NCBI GenBank assembly: GCA_945905295.1
Contig: CAMDPX010000040.1
Span: 1 to 41,376 of the forward strand
Direction: 5' to 3'
DNA: 41,376 bases
Source: Planctomyces sp. SH-PL62
GTDB taxonomy: Bacteria > Planctomycetota > Planctomycetia > Planctomycetales > Planctomycetaceae
The position numbers were made by a program, and so were the translations under genes. The notes under the pieces are model-generated. The model was given only the letters and a program-made list of their open reading frames with translations, had not been told where the DNA came from and did not search any database. Of the stretch, positions 4,201 through 23,534 are shown piece after piece (the stretch's first letter is position 1; each line of letters opens with the position of its first letter).

Positions 4201-4806
4201 ATGAGCCAAGAAGCGACCGTTTACGTCGTCGATGATGATCCCGCTGTCCGAGATTCCATCAGCGCCCTGGTGAACTCCGCTGGCCTGCGCGTGCAGACGT
4301 TTCCGTCCGCCGAAACGTTTCTGCAAGAGTACAAGCCGGACAAGCCCGGCTGCTTGGTGACCGACCTGCGCATGCTGGGCATGAGCGGATTAGACCTGCT
4401 CGAAACTCTGCAAAAGAGCGCCGCCCCGCTGCCAGCGATCCTGATCTCCGCTTATGCCGACGTCCCCGCCGCCGTCCGAGCGATGGAAGCCGGAGCCGTC
4501 ACGCTGCTCGAAAAGCCGTGCCGCAACGATCAACTCGTGCAGGCGATCCACAAGGCTTTGGAACGGGACGCATCTCAACGAGCCACGCGGACGGTCCAGC
4601 AAGACATCAAACGCCACTTGGCGACGCTGACGCCGGAAGAGTACGAAGTCATGCAACGCATGGTCGCCGGCAAGCTCAACAAAGTGATCGCCAACGAATT
4701 GCTCATCAGCCTGCGCACCGTCGAGACTCGGCGTCACAAGGTTCTGGAAAAGATGAAAGCCGACTCGCTGGCGGAGTTGGTGCGGATGGTCGTGGAAGTC
4801 GAGTAG
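4201..4806 (+). CDS. FixJ/LuxR-family two-component response regulator
   Basis: This 201-residue regulator has a receiver domain (about 5-125) with acidic residues D11-D13, phospho-acceptor D55 in CLVTDLRM and K105 in LLEKPC. A LuxR-type helix-turn-helix follows (about 143-198; TPEEYEVMQRMVAGKLNKVI). This order and the SAYADV motif match the FixJ/TodT/NodW group, where phosphorylation by a PAS-type histidine kinase exposes the DNA-binding domain. No cognate kinase is nearby. The TAG stop (4804-4806) is the outer GTAG of the palindromic element at 4803-4855, so the final residues may have been set by insertion of that element. Confidence 0.9.
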   Translation: MSQEATVYVVDDDPAVRDSISALVNSAGLRVQTFPSAETFLQEYKPDKPGCLVTDLRMLGMSGLDLLETLQKSAAPLPAILISAYADVPAAVRAMEAGAVTLLEKPCRNDQLVQAIHKALERDASQRATRTVQQDIKRHLATLTPEEYEVMQRMVAGKLNKVIANELLISLRTVETRRHKVLEKMKADSLAELVRMVVEVE

Positions 4807-4855
4807 GTTGGGACTCTGTCCCGACCCGATTGGTCGGGATGGAATCCCAACCTAC
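4803..4855. repeat. Palindromic element, family E, supplying a stop codon
   Basis: The ends GTAGGTTGGGA and TCCCAACCTAC pair perfectly; the inner arms are CTGTCCCGACC and GGTCGGGATGG. The first four bases contain the TAG stop of the FixJ-like gene. The other end lies 4 bp from the stop of convergent ruvA. Only one clear copy is in the window. Confidence 0.88.
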
Positions 4856-5501: not shown

Positions 5502-5567
5502 CGAAGCCGCGTTCGCCAGTACGCGGGTGTGTTCGCGCGATTTCCGCACTCTGGCGAGTGCGGCTAC
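5502..5567. repeat. Palindromic element, family C, supplying the stop of the DUF1573 gene
   Basis: The left arm AAGCCGCGTTCGCCAG and right arm CTGGCGAGTGCGGCT pair with two mismatches. Read on the minus strand, the outer GTAG contains the TAG stop (5564-5566) of the DUF1573 gene. The CCGCACTCTGGCGAGTGCGG segment also occurs at 23410-23530, where it is interrupted by an insertion. Confidence 0.85.
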
Positions 5568-6370
5568 TTACGCTTGGCATGGTCGTCGCTGCGTGACAAG
5601 CCATCAACTCGCAGCGGCACGCGCAGTTCGGCGTATTCCGGGATGTTCGTGCGGACGATGATCGTGCCGTCGTGAGTGCCGGGCGGTACGTCAGTGATCG
5701 TGACGGCGATCTTCTGCTGTCGCTGACCGATCTCATCAATCTGAGTCTCGCCAATCGCGACCTCGACCCACTTGAGCGTGCTGATCGCTTCCAGAACTTC
5801 GAGTCGAGCCAGCGGCCGATCGTCCGGCGCGGCGCGGAAGTCGGTGATCGTGATCTCACGCTTCGTCGGATCTTTGCCGAATTGGTAGACGATCAACGAT
5901 CGCGGCCTGATTTCAACACGCTCTTCCGGGAGCGAGATCTTGAACCGCACTTCCGCCTCGCGCGGTTGGCCGTCGTCGTAAAGAACTTGGCAGGTGTACT
6001 CGTGCGGGCCGGGCTTCTCGTTGGCCGCGCGGACTCGCAGAAAGAACTCGCCTCCCTCGCCGGGAGCAAACTCTTTGCGTTCCAGCCGCGGATTCAAACA
6101 ACCGCAACTTGGCTTGAGCTCCAAAATCTTCAAAGGTCGCGAACCGACATTTCGAAAGGCATACCGCGCGAGATACTCCGACCGAGGAGGCGGCGCGCCG
6201 AGATTCACGAGGTACTGCTCGAACGCGAGGCATTCTCGCGACGTGTCGGCCGCAACCGGCCGAGCCTTCACGCCGCTGGCATGAACGGCCAGCGACAACG
6301 CAAACGGCAACAATGCCGCGGCCCACAACGCTCGTGGCCACCAACGTCCCTGGCGAACTGACGCATCCAT
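5564..6370 (-). CDS. DUF1573 exported protein
   Basis: This protein of about 268 residues starts at MDASVRQGRWWPR, with GGGAGG eight bases upstream. An earlier ATG at 6403 lies inside a palindromic element and has no ribosome binding site. A signal-peptide-like segment follows (basic residues, then ALWAAALLPFALSLAVHA). The mature part has the DUF1573 signature YAFRNVGSRPLKILELKPSC with GCLNP after it, an immunoglobulin-like beta domain common in Planctomycetes and Bacteroidetes. A second beta-rich region lies near 150-260. It is probably periplasmic or surface exposed, and the family's function is not known. Its TAG stop is provided by the element at 5502-5567. Confidence 0.85.
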   Translation of the reverse strand: MDASVRQGRWWPRALWAAALLPFALSLAVHASGVKARPVAADTSRECLAFEQYLVNLGAPPPRSEYLARYAFRNVGSRPLKILELKPSCGCLNPRLERKEFAPGEGGEFFLRVRAANEKPGPHEYTCQVLYDDGQPREAEVRFKISLPEERVEIRPRSLIVYQFGKDPTKREITITDFRAAPDDRPLARLEVLEAISTLKWVEVAIGETQIDEIGQRQQKIAVTITDVPPGTHDGTIIVRTNIPEYAELRVPLRVDGLSRSDDHAKRK

Positions 6371-14857: not shown

Positions 14858-16032
14858 ACATCAACTCGCGACTGACCGAATGGCATCCAGAAATGACCGC
14901 GTGGCGGCGCGAACTGCACGCACACCCCCAGACTGCGTTTGAGGAAACGTTCGCATCAGAACTCATCGCCTCGAAGCTGCAAGCGTGGGGAATCGAAACG
15001 CATCGCGGACTCGCGAAGACCGGCGTCGTCGGAGTCATTCGCGGCAAGCACAATGGTGACGCGCGGCTGCGAAGCATCGGCCTGAGAGCGGACATCGACG
15101 CGCTCGACATCGAAGAGCTAAACGATGTTCCGCATCGCTCGCAAAATCCAGGCAAGATGCACGCCTGCGGACACGATGGGCATACGACGATGTTGCTCGG
15201 AGCGGCACGCTATCTCGCCGAGTCTCGCAACTTCGCCGGCACCGTGAACGTCATCTTTCAGCCCGCCGAAGAGAATGAAGGAGGCGGCCGAGTCATGGTT
15301 GAAGAAGGTCTCTTCAACCAGTTCCCCTGCGACGTCGTCTTCGGAATGCACAACTGGCCGGGGATGCCGGTCGGACATTTCGGAGTTTGTTCCGGTCCGA
15401 TCATGGCAGCATTCGATGTCTTCGAGATCATCGTTCGTGGACACGGAACGCATGCCGCGATGCCTCATCTGGGAATCGATCCGATTGTCACAGCGGCTCA
15501 GATCGTCACCGCGTTGCAGACCATCGCCAGCCGCAACACGAATCCGCTCGACCAGATTGTCCTGAGCGTCACGCAGTTTCACGGCGGCGACACTTGGAAC
15601 GTGATCCCGACGGAAGTGAAGCTGCGCGGCACCGTGCGAACATTTCGCTCCGAGGTGCAAGACATGGCTGAGGCCCACATGCGCCGGATCGTCAGCGGCA
15701 TCGCGACGTCGCTGGGAGCCTCCGCCGAATTGCATTACGACCGCCGCTATCCGGCGACCGTCAACACGCTGCAAGAGACTCAATGGGCCGCCGAGGCGGC
15801 GGCCGACGTCGTTGGCCAGCAGCACGTCGATACGAACGTCGCTCCGTGCATGGGTGGCGAAGACTTTTCGTTTCTGCTGCAAGAGCGGCCCGGCTGCTAC
15901 CTGTGGGCAGGCAACGGCGCCTCCGAAAATGGCCGCGTGCTGCACAATCCCCGTTACGATTTCAATGACGACCTGCTACCAATCGGCGCGAGCTACTGGG
16001 TACGACTCACCGAGCGACTGCTCGGTTCGTAG
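14854..16032 (+). CDS. M20 family (M20D) amidohydrolase / N-acyl-amino-acid deacylase
   Basis: This 392-residue protein is a dinuclear metal hydrolase of the hippurate hydrolase/N-acetyldiaminopimelate deacetylase group. Metal ligands are visible: C105 and H107 in MHACGHDGH, the PAEE glutamates (about 138-140), H166 in MHNWPG, and a late histidine in VLHNPRYDFND. RRELHAHPQTAFEE is the family's N-terminal motif. It removes acyl groups from N-acyl amino acids in the cytoplasm; the exact substrate is unclear. AGGAG six bases before the ATG supports the start, which overlaps the scpA stop by four bases. Its TAG stop is the outer GTAG of the palindrome at 16029. Confidence 0.88.
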   Translation: MNINSRLTEWHPEMTAWRRELHAHPQTAFEETFASELIASKLQAWGIETHRGLAKTGVVGVIRGKHNGDARLRSIGLRADIDALDIEELNDVPHRSQNPGKMHACGHDGHTTMLLGAARYLAESRNFAGTVNVIFQPAEENEGGGRVMVEEGLFNQFPCDVVFGMHNWPGMPVGHFGVCSGPIMAAFDVFEIIVRGHGTHAAMPHLGIDPIVTAAQIVTALQTIASRNTNPLDQIVLSVTQFHGGDTWNVIPTEVKLRGTVRTFRSEVQDMAEAHMRRIVSGIATSLGASAELHYDRRYPATVNTLQETQWAAEAAADVVGQQHVDTNVAPCMGGEDFSFLLQERPGCYLWAGNGASENGRVLHNPRYDFNDDLLPIGASYWVRLTERLLGS

Positions 16033-16190
16033 CCTGACTCTCCGAGGCTGTGAACTTTTTGGTAGCTGAAGTCGCCAGACTTCAGAATTCGCCGAGAAAA
16101 CTGAACTCTGGCGAGTTCAGCTACCAATTCTTTCACAGCCTCTCCGAGCCGGGTTGTTTGGCGAAGTCCCGACTCGGAGAGTCAGGCTAC
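16029..16190. repeat. Three-level nested palindrome (family B interrupted by a terminal-inverted-repeat element)
   Basis: The outer arms GTAGCCTGACTCTCCGAG (16029-16046) and CTCGGAGAGTCAGGCTAC (16173-16190) are perfect complements and form a family B element. Between them sits a block bounded by GCTGTGAA (16047) and TTCACAGC (ending 16139). This block is flanked on both sides by the 9-bp direct repeat CTCTCCGAG (16038-16046 and 16140-16148). Inside it is another palindrome (GGTAGCTGAA at 16061 to TTCAGCTACC ending 16125). The outermost GTAG gives the upstream gene its TAG stop (16030-16032). Confidence 0.92.
16044..16142. mobile_element. 99-bp MITE-like element, copy 1
   Basis: The terminal inverted repeats GAGGCTGTGAA and TTCACAGCCTC are perfect. 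With this boundary the element is 99 bp; counting CTCTCCGAG as a 9-bp target duplication gives 93 bp instead. It interrupts the family B palindrome at 16029-16190. Similar ends and sizes occur at 22402-22500 and 23421-23518. It encodes nothing, so any movement would need a transposase from elsewhere. Confidence 0.65.
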
Positions 16191-16209
16191 GCTTTTAAGG
16201 ACTCAAATC

Positions 16210-21956: not shown

Positions 21957-22050
21957 AAGGGGTCGGGAGTCTTTTTTCGGGGCGGCTGGCGAGTCGCTTT
22001 TCGTCTTTGAGCAGCCCTTGGCCGCCCCGAAAAAAGACTCCCGACCCCTT
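21957..22050. repeat. Perfect 30-bp inverted repeat (family H)
   Basis: The arms 21957-21986 and 22021-22050 are exact complements; the arm starts AAGGGGTCGGGAGTC and continues into TTTTTTCGGGGCGGC. A 34-nt spacer separates them. The element lies 23 bp upstream of the MFS start codon, so it would be in that gene's leader or promoter. Confidence 0.92.
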
Positions 22051-22126: not shown

Positions 22127-22390
22127 CGGGTTTGCCGAAGTTTGCAGTTGCGGGCCAACGCCTGCCACCACGGCGAGAGAATTCAATTGCAGTGCTCGTG
22201 CCAAACTTGAACCCAATTTTGAAAAGAGCCGCAAGGCCCTGTTTCGCCGAACATTTTCGGATTTCCAAGTCCGACGGCGAGCCAATCGTCGCACTCGCCG
22301 AGCCGCGCACTTTGCAACACCTGCGGCATTTTGCCCAACCGACTGCGGCGTGTTGCATAAGTAGCCGCGTCACTCCCTGACGCGAAGATT
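22127..22390. other. Stretch with no recognised gene
   Basis: Short frames exist (for example 22183-22398, minus strand), but none shows a domain, good start or link to neighbours. It may be the remains of a gene between panB and the MFS gene. Confidence 0.4.
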
Positions 22391-22401
22391 CCGGTCACGA
22401 A

Positions 22402-22500
22402 GAGACTGTGAAGTTTTCGTGGAGCACGTTTTCAACGTGCTCGAAAATAGGCCGATTGGGCACGTTGAAAACGTGCCCCACGTCATTTATTCATAGCCTC
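22402..22500. mobile_element. 99-bp MITE-like element, copy 2, carrying a family D palindrome
   Basis: The ends GAGACTGTGAA and TTCATAGCCTC match the copy 1 ends with two pairing mismatches, and the length is again 99 bp. Inside, 22419-22481 is a family D palindrome (GTGGAGCACGTTTTCAACGT and its partner). It is flanked by CCGGTCAC (22391-22398) and GTGACCGG (22504-22511), which are complementary, so it also appears to sit inside an older inverted repeat. Confidence 0.6.
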
Positions 22501-22523
22501 GGTGTGACCGGTCTACTTTGGTT

Positions 22524-23324
22524 TCAGCGATGGCTGTGAGCGTCGTCGGGGAACGCCCCAGACCGGACTTCAGCGACGTATTGCTGAGCGGCGCGAGTCG
22601 CCTCGGCTCGCAACTCCGCGAAGTGCTTGACGAACTTCGGATGGAAGCCGTCGGTCAGGCCGAGCATGTCGTAACTGACCAGCACTTGGCCGTCGCAGTC
22701 GGGGCCAGCTCCGATGCCGATGGTGGGAACGTGTAACTCACGAGTGATCTGGGCCGCGATTTCTCGCGGAATCAGTTCCAGCAGAACGCCGAACGCCCCG
22801 GCCTCTTGTGCGGCTCTCGCGTCGGCCAGCAGGCGGTGCTCATCGCGTTGCACTTTCATGCCGCCGAATTTGTGGACCGACTGTGGTTTCAATCCGACGT
22901 GGGCCATCACGGGGATGTCCGCCTCGGCCAGCGCGGTGATGGTGCGAACCTGATTCTCGCCCCCTTCGAGTTTGACGGCGGCGGCCCCGGTTTCTTTCAG
23001 AATACGGCCAGCATTCTCGACCGCTTGAGCTGGGCTGACTTGGAACGACATGAACGGCATGTCGACGATGACCAGCGCTTGGCGAACGGCTCGTGTGACA
23101 CACTTGGCGTGATAAATGATCTCGTCGAGAGTCACGGGCAGCGTGGTGGAATGCCCTTGGATGACCATGCCCAAGCTGTCGCCGACCAGGATCGAGTCCA
23201 CGCCTGCTGCATCGAACAGCCCTGCCCACGTGAAATCGTAGGCGGTCAACATCGTCAGCTTGCGGCCCTCGGACTTGGCCTGCACGAAGTGTGGAACGGT
23301 CATCGTTGGAGCGGTCTTAGTCAT
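22524..23324 (-). CDS. panB: 3-methyl-2-oxobutanoate hydroxymethyltransferase
   Basis: This protein of about 266 residues makes ketopantoate from alpha-ketoisovalerate and methylenetetrahydrofolate, the first committed step of pantothenate (coenzyme A) synthesis. MTVPHFVQAKSEGRKLTML is the family N-terminus. VDSILVGDSLGMVIQGH holds the metal-binding aspartate and AAAVKLEGG the lysine/glycine motif. Later motifs VMAHVGLKPQSVHKFGG and IGIGAGPDCDGQVLV, then YDMLGL, are typical. The frame is open to 23447, but that extension runs through the nested palindromes at 23374-23534 and is not conserved in type. ATGs at 23324 or 23303 are the candidate starts; neither has a strong ribosome binding site. 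Confidence 0.93.
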   Translation of the reverse strand: MTKTAPTMTVPHFVQAKSEGRKLTMLTAYDFTWAGLFDAAGVDSILVGDSLGMVIQGHSTTLPVTLDEIIYHAKCVTRAVRQALVIVDMPFMSFQVSPAQAVENAGRILKETGAAAVKLEGGENQVRTITALAEADIPVMAHVGLKPQSVHKFGGMKVQRDEHRLLADARAAQEAGAFGVLLELIPREIAAQITRELHVPTIGIGAGPDCDGQVLVSYDMLGLTDGFHPKFVKHFAELRAEATRAAQQYVAEVRSGAFPDDAHSHR

Positions 23325-23373
23325 GGCAACAAACACTAACTCGAAGCGTCTGCGAGGGCGAGGCACGTTCGCC

Positions 23374-23534
23374 GTAGCCGCATTCGCCAGAACGCGGGTG
23401 GCCGTGGCCCGCACTCTGGCCAGGCTGTTGAAAAAGCCGTGGAGCACTATTTCATCGTGCTCATTCTCCGAAGAAATTTGGCACGTTGGAAACGTGCCCC
23501 ACGTTTTTCAACAGGCTGTGGCGAGTGCGGCTAC
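23374..23534. repeat. Family C palindrome interrupted by an insertion
   Basis: The outer ends GTAGCCGCATTCGCCAG (23374) and GCGAGTGCGGCTAC (ending 23534) belong to a family C element. The uninterrupted relative at 5502-5567 contains CCGCACTCTGGCGAGTGCGG; here the run is broken after CTCTGGC by a 98-bp insert and resumes as TGGCGAGTGCGG. This gives a TGGC direct repeat at the borders. Confidence 0.85.
23421..23518. mobile_element. 98-bp MITE-like element, copy 3, carrying a two-hairpin family D palindrome
   Basis: The left end CAGGCTGTTGAAAAA and right end TTTTTCAACAGGCTG are inverted repeats with one mismatch. The inner part (23438-23503) holds the two hairpins GAGCACTATTTCATCGTGCTC (one imperfect pair) and GGCACGTTGGAAACGTGCC. 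It resembles copies 1 and 2 in size, ends and preference for inserting in a palindrome. Confidence 0.65.

Follow-up and report, generated by a model that had tools for sequence, protein, structure and literature searches.

Putative IS1182-derived miniature elements with REPIN cargo in REP hairpin loops of a planctomycete genome

Introduction

REPINs and GTAG-tagged REPs, together with RAYTs, make up a known system (PMC3733652, PMC3116915), and GTAG REPs have been reported in Planctomycetes as well (PMC3733652). The same survey describes REP dimers embedded in larger palindromes: dimers of GTAG-15 are enclosed in this way in A. variabilis, and in H. neapolitanus palindromes of 41 bp enclose dimers of CGTC-1. 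REPs are also the targets of insertion sequences (ISs), e.g., IS1397, ISKpn1, ISPsy8 (IS3), ISRm22, IS621, and ISPpu9 (PMC1525189).

Within the IS1182 family, IS1272/TnSha1 targets stem-loops without a consensus, deletes hairpin sequence, and leaves no duplication (PMC5678879, PMC4923244). Attack on the loop that duplicates the loop only was drawn by the IS1272 authors as a possible pathway (pathway c of their Fig. 13), and both papers cite a review on other IS1182 members that target palindromes (PMC5678879, PMC4923244). MITEs derived from this family are likewise known, e.g., those of ISMac2 in Methanosarcina acetivorans (PMC3852290).

Here, we describe elements that bring these themes together. 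The window, i.e., the whole stretch of 41,376 nucleotides under analysis, is the entire contig C40 of an 8.6-Mb draft genome in 476 contigs, and it contains three short elements, each within one REP of a REP pair. We consider it highly probable, judging from sequence comparisons, that they are IS1182-derived MITEs with REPIN cargo, inserted into REP loops by an IS1182-family transposase acting in trans.

Results

The first element (99 bp; 16044..16142, plus strand) reads GAGGCTGTGAA-CTTTTTG-(GTAGCTGAAGTCGCCAGACTTCAG … CTGAACTCTGGCGAGTTCAGCTAC)-CAATTCT-TTCACAGCCTC and is one of 50 exact two-ended copies of what we term frame 1, here filled with core A. It is bordered by two copies of TCC (16041..16043 and 16143..16145), the duplicated left loop of the interrupted host REP pair GTAGCCTGACTC-TCC-GAGCCGGG … CCCGACTCGGAGAGTCAGGCTAC, which spans about 16028-16191 (16029..16190; inverted repeats I13 and I20). 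By predicted gene starts, its neighbors on the two sides are genes for a peptidase M20 and a DAHP synthase. The second element (99 bp; 22402..22500, plus strand) combines frame 1 with core B and has sister copies elsewhere in the genome. Its ends, GAGACTGTGAA and TTCATAGCCTC, are slightly decayed around the REPIN core GTGGAGCACG…/…CGTGCCCCAC, and the edge triplets GAA (22399..22401) and GGT (22501..22503) may both be decayed copies of a GGA loop. The host REP pair, GTAGCCGCGTCACTCC … GTGACCGGTCTAC (22361..22516), was recognized by eye, and a similar REP class occurs at many other frame-1 sites. The third element (98 bp; 23421..23518, plus strand), with the layout CAGGCTGTTGAAAAA…(GTGGAGCAC … GTGCCCCAC)…TTTTTCAACAGGCTG, represents frame 2 with core C and has 15 copies genome-wide. 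It interrupts the right loop of the pair GTAGCCGCATTCGCCAGAACGCGGG … CCCGCACTC-TGGC-GAGTGCGGCTAC (23374..23534; inverted repeat I18), whose 4-nt loop TGGC is duplicated at 23417..23420 and 23519..23522; an uninterrupted pair of the same class, with the TGGC loop empty, is found at 5502..5567. The second and third elements flank panB, one per side, by predicted gene starts. Proteins with PSCyt2/PSD1 domains suggest a planctomycete as the source of the DNA. Hairpin folding z values of the three elements are -12.2, -7.0, and -7.4, respectively, and none of 200 shuffles folds as well. The window also holds a perfect 30-bp inverted repeat, AAGGGGTCGGGAGTCTTTTTTCGGGGCGGC, with arms 34 nt apart (21957-22050).

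The coordinates given for the three elements in the preliminary description are exact, and each element does interrupt another inverted repeat, recognizable as a REP pair. The comparison of 23374-23534 with the intact 5502-5567 reveals the insertion point, as had been claimed, with TGGC on both sides of the element. A single family of 98-99 bp was also proposed; the repeated elements are real, but they split into two families with 3-nt and 4-nt duplications and different loops. The palindromes inside differ, as stated there, and can be recast as REPINs of kinds that also stand alone.

A search for GAGGCTGTGAA-N60-90-TTCACAGCCTC returned 50 exact two-ended copies genome-wide and none with the reversed pattern as control; exact single ends numbered 165, with one in the control. 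Further analysis relied on a 1.37-Mb sample of the genome, which is enriched for elements because the sequence was taken around known copies. It includes 88 frame-1 elements with core A (55) or core B (33), one with core D, and seven frame-2 elements. Another 26 loose end pairs, most of them chance occurrences within genes or the same ends paired over a greater distance, were left out by length and core. Copies with cores A and B are 99 bp long in 85 of 88 cases and 100 bp long in the other 3. Mean pairwise identity reaches 96.7% among the 53 core-A copies of 99 bp, 12 of which are identical to the commonest sequence, and 95.7% among the 32 corresponding core-B copies; the spread of frame 1 therefore looks recent. 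Short, gene-less, bounded by terminal inverted repeats, and present in many copies, the A and B elements have the features of MITEs. These sequence data show a real, large, and apparently recently active family of non-autonomous elements.

Across several genera, the total lengths of frame-1 and frame-2 elements lie near 97-100, 118-121, and 139-142 bp despite unrelated cores. The apparent steps of ~21 bp equal two helical turns, as if the ends needed to lie on one face of the helix; lengths of 128 and 149-151 bp and one 52-bp remnant fit poorly. Later insertion of cores into a bare frame was dropped as an explanation: no frame without a core was encountered, and L262, the sole short example at 52 bp, is a core-D element with a deletion.

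Core A consists of GTAGCTGAAGTC-GCCA-GACTTCAG … plus an inverted mate, and core B of GTGG(A/G)GCACGTTTTCAACGTGC … plus its mate. Both have the GTAG-REP/REPIN layout, with a GTRG foot, a hairpin, and two inverted REPs. GTRG hairpins number 55 in 398 kb, compared with 3 in the backward-read control, these stretches being no unbiased sample, as they come from contigs outside the earlier sampling and are hence element-poor. The 1.37-Mb sample contains 39 core-B-like REPINs outside elements, of which 35 have TIR-like stretches on neither side and none on both sides; among the four with one such stretch, one (L083) is a truncated element and another (L085) looks decayed. Unframed REPINs of this kind are 50-128 bp long, versus 63-65 bp for 40 framed ones. 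The genome yields 13 matches to Y1 transposases. REP arrays adjoin Y1 genes for other REP types (L023, L032, and L033), and near Y1 genes cores A and B are represented by only one GTGGAGCACG REP, about 500 bp from the L030 gene. At L032 (G000:C225) and L033 (G000:C147), Y1 (RAYT-like) genes stand amid many inverted GTAGGTTGGGACTCCGTCCCGAC REPs in a REPtron-like arrangement; a REP similar to GTAGGTTGGGACTCCGTCCCGAC occurs in the window at 4803-4855.

The edges of the 88 A and B copies are direct TCC/GGA repeats in 73 cases, one-mismatch repeats in 11, inverted TCC/GGA in 3, and otherwise in 1, the window element at 22402. With the flanks joined and at least 6 of 8 Watson-Crick pairs demanded around the loop, 78 of 88 copies sit in hairpins, versus 188 of 21,714 plus-strand TCC trinucleotides in the sample; the remaining 10 have weak stems. 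A GTRG foot at REP distance accompanies 62 of 88 sites (background, 1,471 of 21,712), a GTNG foot 79, and a GTNG foot plus stem 73. Exact-repeat sites amount to 69 distinct ones with 19 different 6-nt arms, TGACTC being present in 28 of them. Across these 69, stem pairs 2, 4, and 7 stay paired in 63, 57, and 60 (best of 500 shuffles: 40, 42, and 42), and the letters of pairs 2, 4, 6, and 7 vary with pairing kept beyond all 500 shuffles. Pairs 1, 3, 5, and 8 are near-constant, with the same pair in 68, 63, 63, and 59 sites; three sites with swapped letters at pair 5 keep a 7-8 bp stem. Sites with the fixed bases and at least 3 of 5 variable pairs are vacant in 73 and occupied in 53 cases in the sample plus the 398 kb, a ratio inflated by sampling. 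Stem pairing does not significantly separate occupied from vacant sites among the fixed-base matches (p = 0.28), a comparison in which just 12 vacant sites are poorly paired.

With the TCC strand of the host REP as reference, exact-repeat copies with core B all point one way (26/26; e.g., L008, L042, and L060), and those with core A do so in 31 of 46 cases, with 15 the other way and one further A copy outside the count. Two observations suggest that the duplicated letters come from the target: they change with the target (TCT/TCT at L262 in G105; also ACT, CTAA, and AGGC), and both TCC and GGA are seen among the IS copies. A half-REP search for other insertions into REP loops found left arms followed by neither an intact arm nor an element in 2 of 78 (r1) and 0 of 43 (r2) cases, neither of the two convincing. 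The r3 "others" among the matches listed were mostly intact REPs of other stems, and right-arm patterns were too unspecific for this search.

The probable mover is provided by a congener (G104), in which contig C191 carries a 1,708-bp IS running from TCC-GAGCCTGTGAAACAATTGATT… to …AATTGATTCACAGACTC-TCC, with ends GAGCCTGTGAAACAATTGAT and GAGTCTGTGAATCAATTGAT, target duplication TCC, and a 471-aa transposase. The protein scores 348 bits against the NCBIfam IS1182 model (NF033551; cut-off, 270) and also matches DUF772, DDE_Tnp_1_6, and DDE_Tnp_1. The ends of this IS agree at 33 of 38 positions with those of the D-core MITE found in G106, so that MITE-type ends bound an autonomous IS with an IS1182 transposase in a congener. 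Best matches among the IS ends listed are 31/38 for MITE A and 30/38 for MITE B; the latter figure belongs to an IS of G157 (L239) with much the same unlike end pair as MITE B, AATTTTTG and AATAAATGG. Related proteins occur in 45 of 170 genomes (E <= 1e-10). Thirty loci from the transposase search were scanned for ends, and nine were taken as complete copies with ends of the general type (GAGGCTGTGA, GAGCCTGTGA, GAGGCTGTCA, GAGGTTGTGA, CAGGTTGTGA, and similar sequences). The ends of L250 and L255 are of a different type, and the rest show no convincing end pair. The transposases of L233, L236, and L242 also exceed the IS1182 cut-off. Among the nine ISs, four have exact 3-bp repeats (TCC, GGA, TCC, and GGA), three have one mismatch, and two have none; the duplication length is thus the 3 bp of the MITEs (exact in 73/88 MITEs and 4/9 ISs).

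Eight of the IS targets were folded, L241 being left out. Strong hairpins were obtained for L235 and L239, an 8-bp stem with loop GGA for L242, a bulged hairpin with the same loop for L233, and imperfect structures for L232 and L237; neither L236 nor L238 gave a notable hairpin. Comparison with random windows from the loci sampled, a background that is not well chosen, singles out L235 and L239 alone, as such windows reach the folding energy of the targets in 25% (L232), 18% (L233), 14% (L242), and 36% (L237) of cases.

A protein search of this draft assembly revealed no autonomous copy with matching ends. Its sole match, on C33, is 27% identical and has other ends (GGGGACTGTCGTTTTA). Four PF01609 transposase genes were rejected for want of matching ends, as was the single PF05598 gene, that on C33, a 337-aa slice of which has no NCBIfam hit. 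With the draft 97% complete and repeated ISs commonly lost from such assemblies, this absence is weak evidence. Of the expectations voiced before this analysis, recurrence of the ends genome-wide with constant sequence and length held well (50 exact two-ended copies versus 0 in the control), as did the preference of non-autonomous elements for hairpins (78 of 88 sites of the first kind); as for an IS with the same ends, a matching IS1182-family element exists in the congener, but none was found in this draft.

Exact two-ended frame-1 elements are present in 4 of the 170 genomes of the family, this one included, all of the same genus. With one mismatch per end, 12 elements appear among the 11 remaining members of the genus, 7 of which carry them (G105, G106, G108, G110, G111, G112, and G113). 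Their edges show an exact 3-nt repeat in five (L146, L148, L158, L207, and L262), a one-mismatch repeat in four (L147, L153, L161, and L270), and none in three (L208, L211, and L271). The cores comprise A and its variants, B, GTGGGGTAGGC (G110), GAGCCGCGACCGTCAGGGAGCGG (G112), GTAGAGCAGGCGATTCGCCTGC (G108), and a GCCACCGGGCTTGTCC-like core (G105 and G113); core D, of the GCGAGCGGGG-GGCGTCAGCC type, occurs in G106, as a remnant in G105, and at L088 of the genome studied here. The 121-bp interior of L271 (G108) has no clear palindrome. Three sites are orthologous to sites in sister species, with 85.9% identity over 2.9 kb (G111), 81.8% over 2.2 kb (G112), and 80.9% over a 1.3-kb stretch that stops at the element (G113). 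All are filled in both species with unlike cores, namely, A versus an A' variant, B versus the G112 core, and A versus the G113 core, which may reflect either repeated hits of one loop or core exchange. The REP pair at the G113 site lacks its inner halves.

The window itself starts with a perfect 31-bp inverted repeat, GGCGAGCGGGGCGGCGTCAGCCCCCCGGTGC (2-84), a palindrome of the core-D kind; perhaps the assembly broke in a repeat. At two places in G110 (L209/L228 and L223/L229), one of them about 250 bp from a contig start, TCC-GAGCCTGTGAAA ends occupy the loop of a GTAGCCCTGTCGC REP, and no partner end was found in the vicinity; these are possibly remnants or other elements.

Frame 2, defined by CAGSCTGTTGAAAAA… ends, is represented by 15 element copies of 97-99 bp genome-wide. 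The CAGSCTGTTGAA frame has 6 exact two-ended copies; with one mismatch allowed, CAGSCTGTTGAAAAA ends number 28, comprising those of the 15 elements and two chance hits (C70 and C97). Exact GCCA/TGGC repeats border 9 of the 15 copies; edges of the other 6 show one mismatch (C331), TTGGC (C49 and C187), AGGC (C92), CTAA (C78), or an ambiguous pattern (C151b). Among 397 genomes of the class, 76 contain CAGSCTGTTGAAAAA ends, many single hits at the inspected loci being due to chance. These loci include elements that measure 97-100 and 118-151 bp and have palindromic cores of other kinds; several show 4-bp repeats such as CTAA, TTAA, and CCAA. Longer elements with frame-2 ends are also found, i.e., L309 (1,460 bp) and L312 (1,511 bp, with a CTAA repeat), whose proteins score 119.1 (a fragment) and 170.6 bits with the IS1182 model, below the cut-off of 270. 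L309, L312, and the CTAA-like repeats therefore make an IS1182-like IS the probable source of frame 2, with a CTAA-like target elsewhere and mostly GCCA loops in this genome.

Elements of 97-98 bp with frame-2 ends, several per genome, were also noticed in other planctomycete families (L313, L314, L316, L317, and L330; G279 and G334); their core is a GGGG(T/A)C(T/A)GACCC palindrome. Across named genomes, GCCA plus a frame-2 end gave 19 matches, judged by eye, of which 17 look like chance. Of the other two, L186 (Planctomyces) has the appearance of a frame-2 element that carries a different core within a REP loop, and L185, in the clostridium Oceanirhabdus seepicola (about 6161-6270), is a hairpin whose ends CAGGCTGTTGAAAAAGCCC … GGGCTTTTTCAACGCCTG resemble frame 2.

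Discussion

The copies, their ends and constant length, the loop duplication at many sites, the similar ends of a congener's IS, and the different cores in relatives are all read from sequence, and on ends and duplication the assignment of the elements to IS1182 MITEs is well supported. Each MITE would consist of ~17 bp resembling each end of an IS1182-family IS, with the transposase gene replaced by a REPIN, i.e., a pair of inverted REP hairpins. An IS1182-family transposase supplied in trans may bind these ends and join them to a hairpin loop in DNA, most often that of a REP. Since the stagger would equal the loop, the loop would be duplicated: TCC (3 nt) for GAGGCTGTGAA ends and mostly GCCA (4 nt) for CAGCCTGTTGAAAAA. 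We infer the IS1182 transposase as the mover and a target extruded as a hairpin or cruciform when hit. The cores presumably derive from the resident REPIN population.

That the units are instead extended REPINs moved by a RAYT/TIRYT tyrosine transposase, the outer inverted repeats being merely a longer stem, strikes us as very improbable. The 13 Y1 matches, the REPtron-like GTAGGTTGGGACTCCGTCCCGAC arrays at L032 and L033, and the GTGGAGCACG REP near L030 fit such a scenario, as do published TIR-flanked RAYT genes (PMC3733652). Against it, the duplicated target letters differ between sites (TCC, GCCA, TGGC, TCT, CTAA, AGGC, and ACT), and similar ends bound an IS1182 transposase gene. We know of no HUH-type transposition that duplicates its target, and to our knowledge REPIN movement leaves no target duplication either; for a whole 99-bp element moving as a REPIN none would be expected, and 73 of 88 sites are exactly duplicated. 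Free core-B-like REPINs also speak against an extended unit, given that 0 of 39 have TIR-like stretches on both sides and that their lengths scatter over 50-128 bp rather than 63-65 bp. An even slimmer chance attaches to a history of few true insertions, with REP-plus-element units copied jointly by gene conversion or REP-REP recombination. The concentration of many sites in one REP class (arm TGACTC, 28/69) and the filling of three orthologous REPs in both species would suit this history; the presence of 19 arms among 69 distinct sites, the differences seen by eye in REP spacers and outer flanks, the two orientations of core A, and direct repeats outside the usual REP loops (ACT, CTAA, and AGGC) do not.

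A subtler alternative keeps the elements and the transposase and supposes that the target is read as a palindromic consensus (about GWCWCTCCGWGWC) and not as a hairpin structure. We regard it as unlikely, yet deserving of more weight than the foregoing two, since stem positions 1, 3, 5, and 8 are near-constant and pairing makes no significant difference at consensus-matching sites. Positions 2, 4, 6, and 7 argue for structure, as they vary with compensating pairs, and so do the three sites that swap the pair-5 letters and retain their stem. Some IS1182 copies of relatives moreover reside in unrelated hairpins (GTTTCGC-GGA-GCGAAAC and CTGGCCGGTCC-AAT-GGACCGGCCAG), and IS1272 reportedly recognizes stem-loops without a consensus (PMC5678879, PMC4923244). 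Insertion of IS1182-derived MITEs into REP hairpin loops is the reading that we retain. Its broader form, in which an IS1182-clade DDE transposase hits loops of extruded hairpins with a stagger equal to the loop, duplicating the loop alone irrespective of the stem, and REPIN-swapping mini-elements thereby disperse REPs by cut-and-paste transposition and nest hairpins in existing REPs, is advanced tentatively, its chances lying somewhat below even.

If true, REPs of planctomycetes would spread by a second route in addition to RAYTs, cores being swapped within a fixed frame. This would join DDE-moved MITEs and RAYT-moved REPs, two fields of small repeats studied apart, and it offers an explanation for the nested REP arrays in these genomes. 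About seventy natural sites become available for loop-only duplication, so far drawn as a possible pathway of the IS1182 family. They make it testable whether a DDE transposase reads DNA shape, i.e., a hairpin loop, or sequence, with potential value as a tool for targeting cruciforms and terminators.

Cores and most targets of the elements resemble RAYT-associated REP pairs (PMC3733652). The palindromes that enclose REP dimers are presented in that survey as targets of REP insertion, its relevant part giving no mechanism, whereas here the outer repeats would be the ends of the element that inserts into REPs. Among the REP-targeting ISs, ISPsy8 generates a repeat of 3 bp where a predicted hairpin in a REP has its symmetry axis (PMC1525189). 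The REP-targeting ISs are full ISs of the IS3, IS110, IS4, IS256, and IS5 families, not of IS1182, and REP cargo is not mentioned in the part of that paper devoted to them (PMC1525189); the candidate partner transposase here is of the IS1182 type and not of the IS3 type of IS1397 and ISPsy8. The MITEs of ISMac2 are, as here, non-autonomous IS1182-family derivatives (PMC3852290). They measure 160 and 169 bp, with direct repeats of apparently 4 and 0, and their entries in that source mention neither REP cargo nor a REP-loop target (PMC3852290).

IS1272 shares with our elements the transposase family and hairpin targets of little primary sequence conservation, and differs from them in that they are about 99 bp long and gene-less. 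Insertion of IS1272 removes the hairpin partly or wholly and leaves no duplication, whereas the arms are kept and the loop is duplicated at most sites described here. The 3 of 88 sites with inverted TCC/GGA edges could be hairpin replacements, and the G113 site lacking the inner REP halves resembles the replacement described for IS1272. A literature search, mostly outside subscription journals and at the level of titles and abstracts, retrieved neither REPIN-carrying IS1182 MITEs nor loop-duplicating IS1182 insertion. Hairpin targeting by an IS1182 member is already published; what is new is the bulk occurrence of loop-only duplication in REPs combined with interchangeable REPIN cargo.
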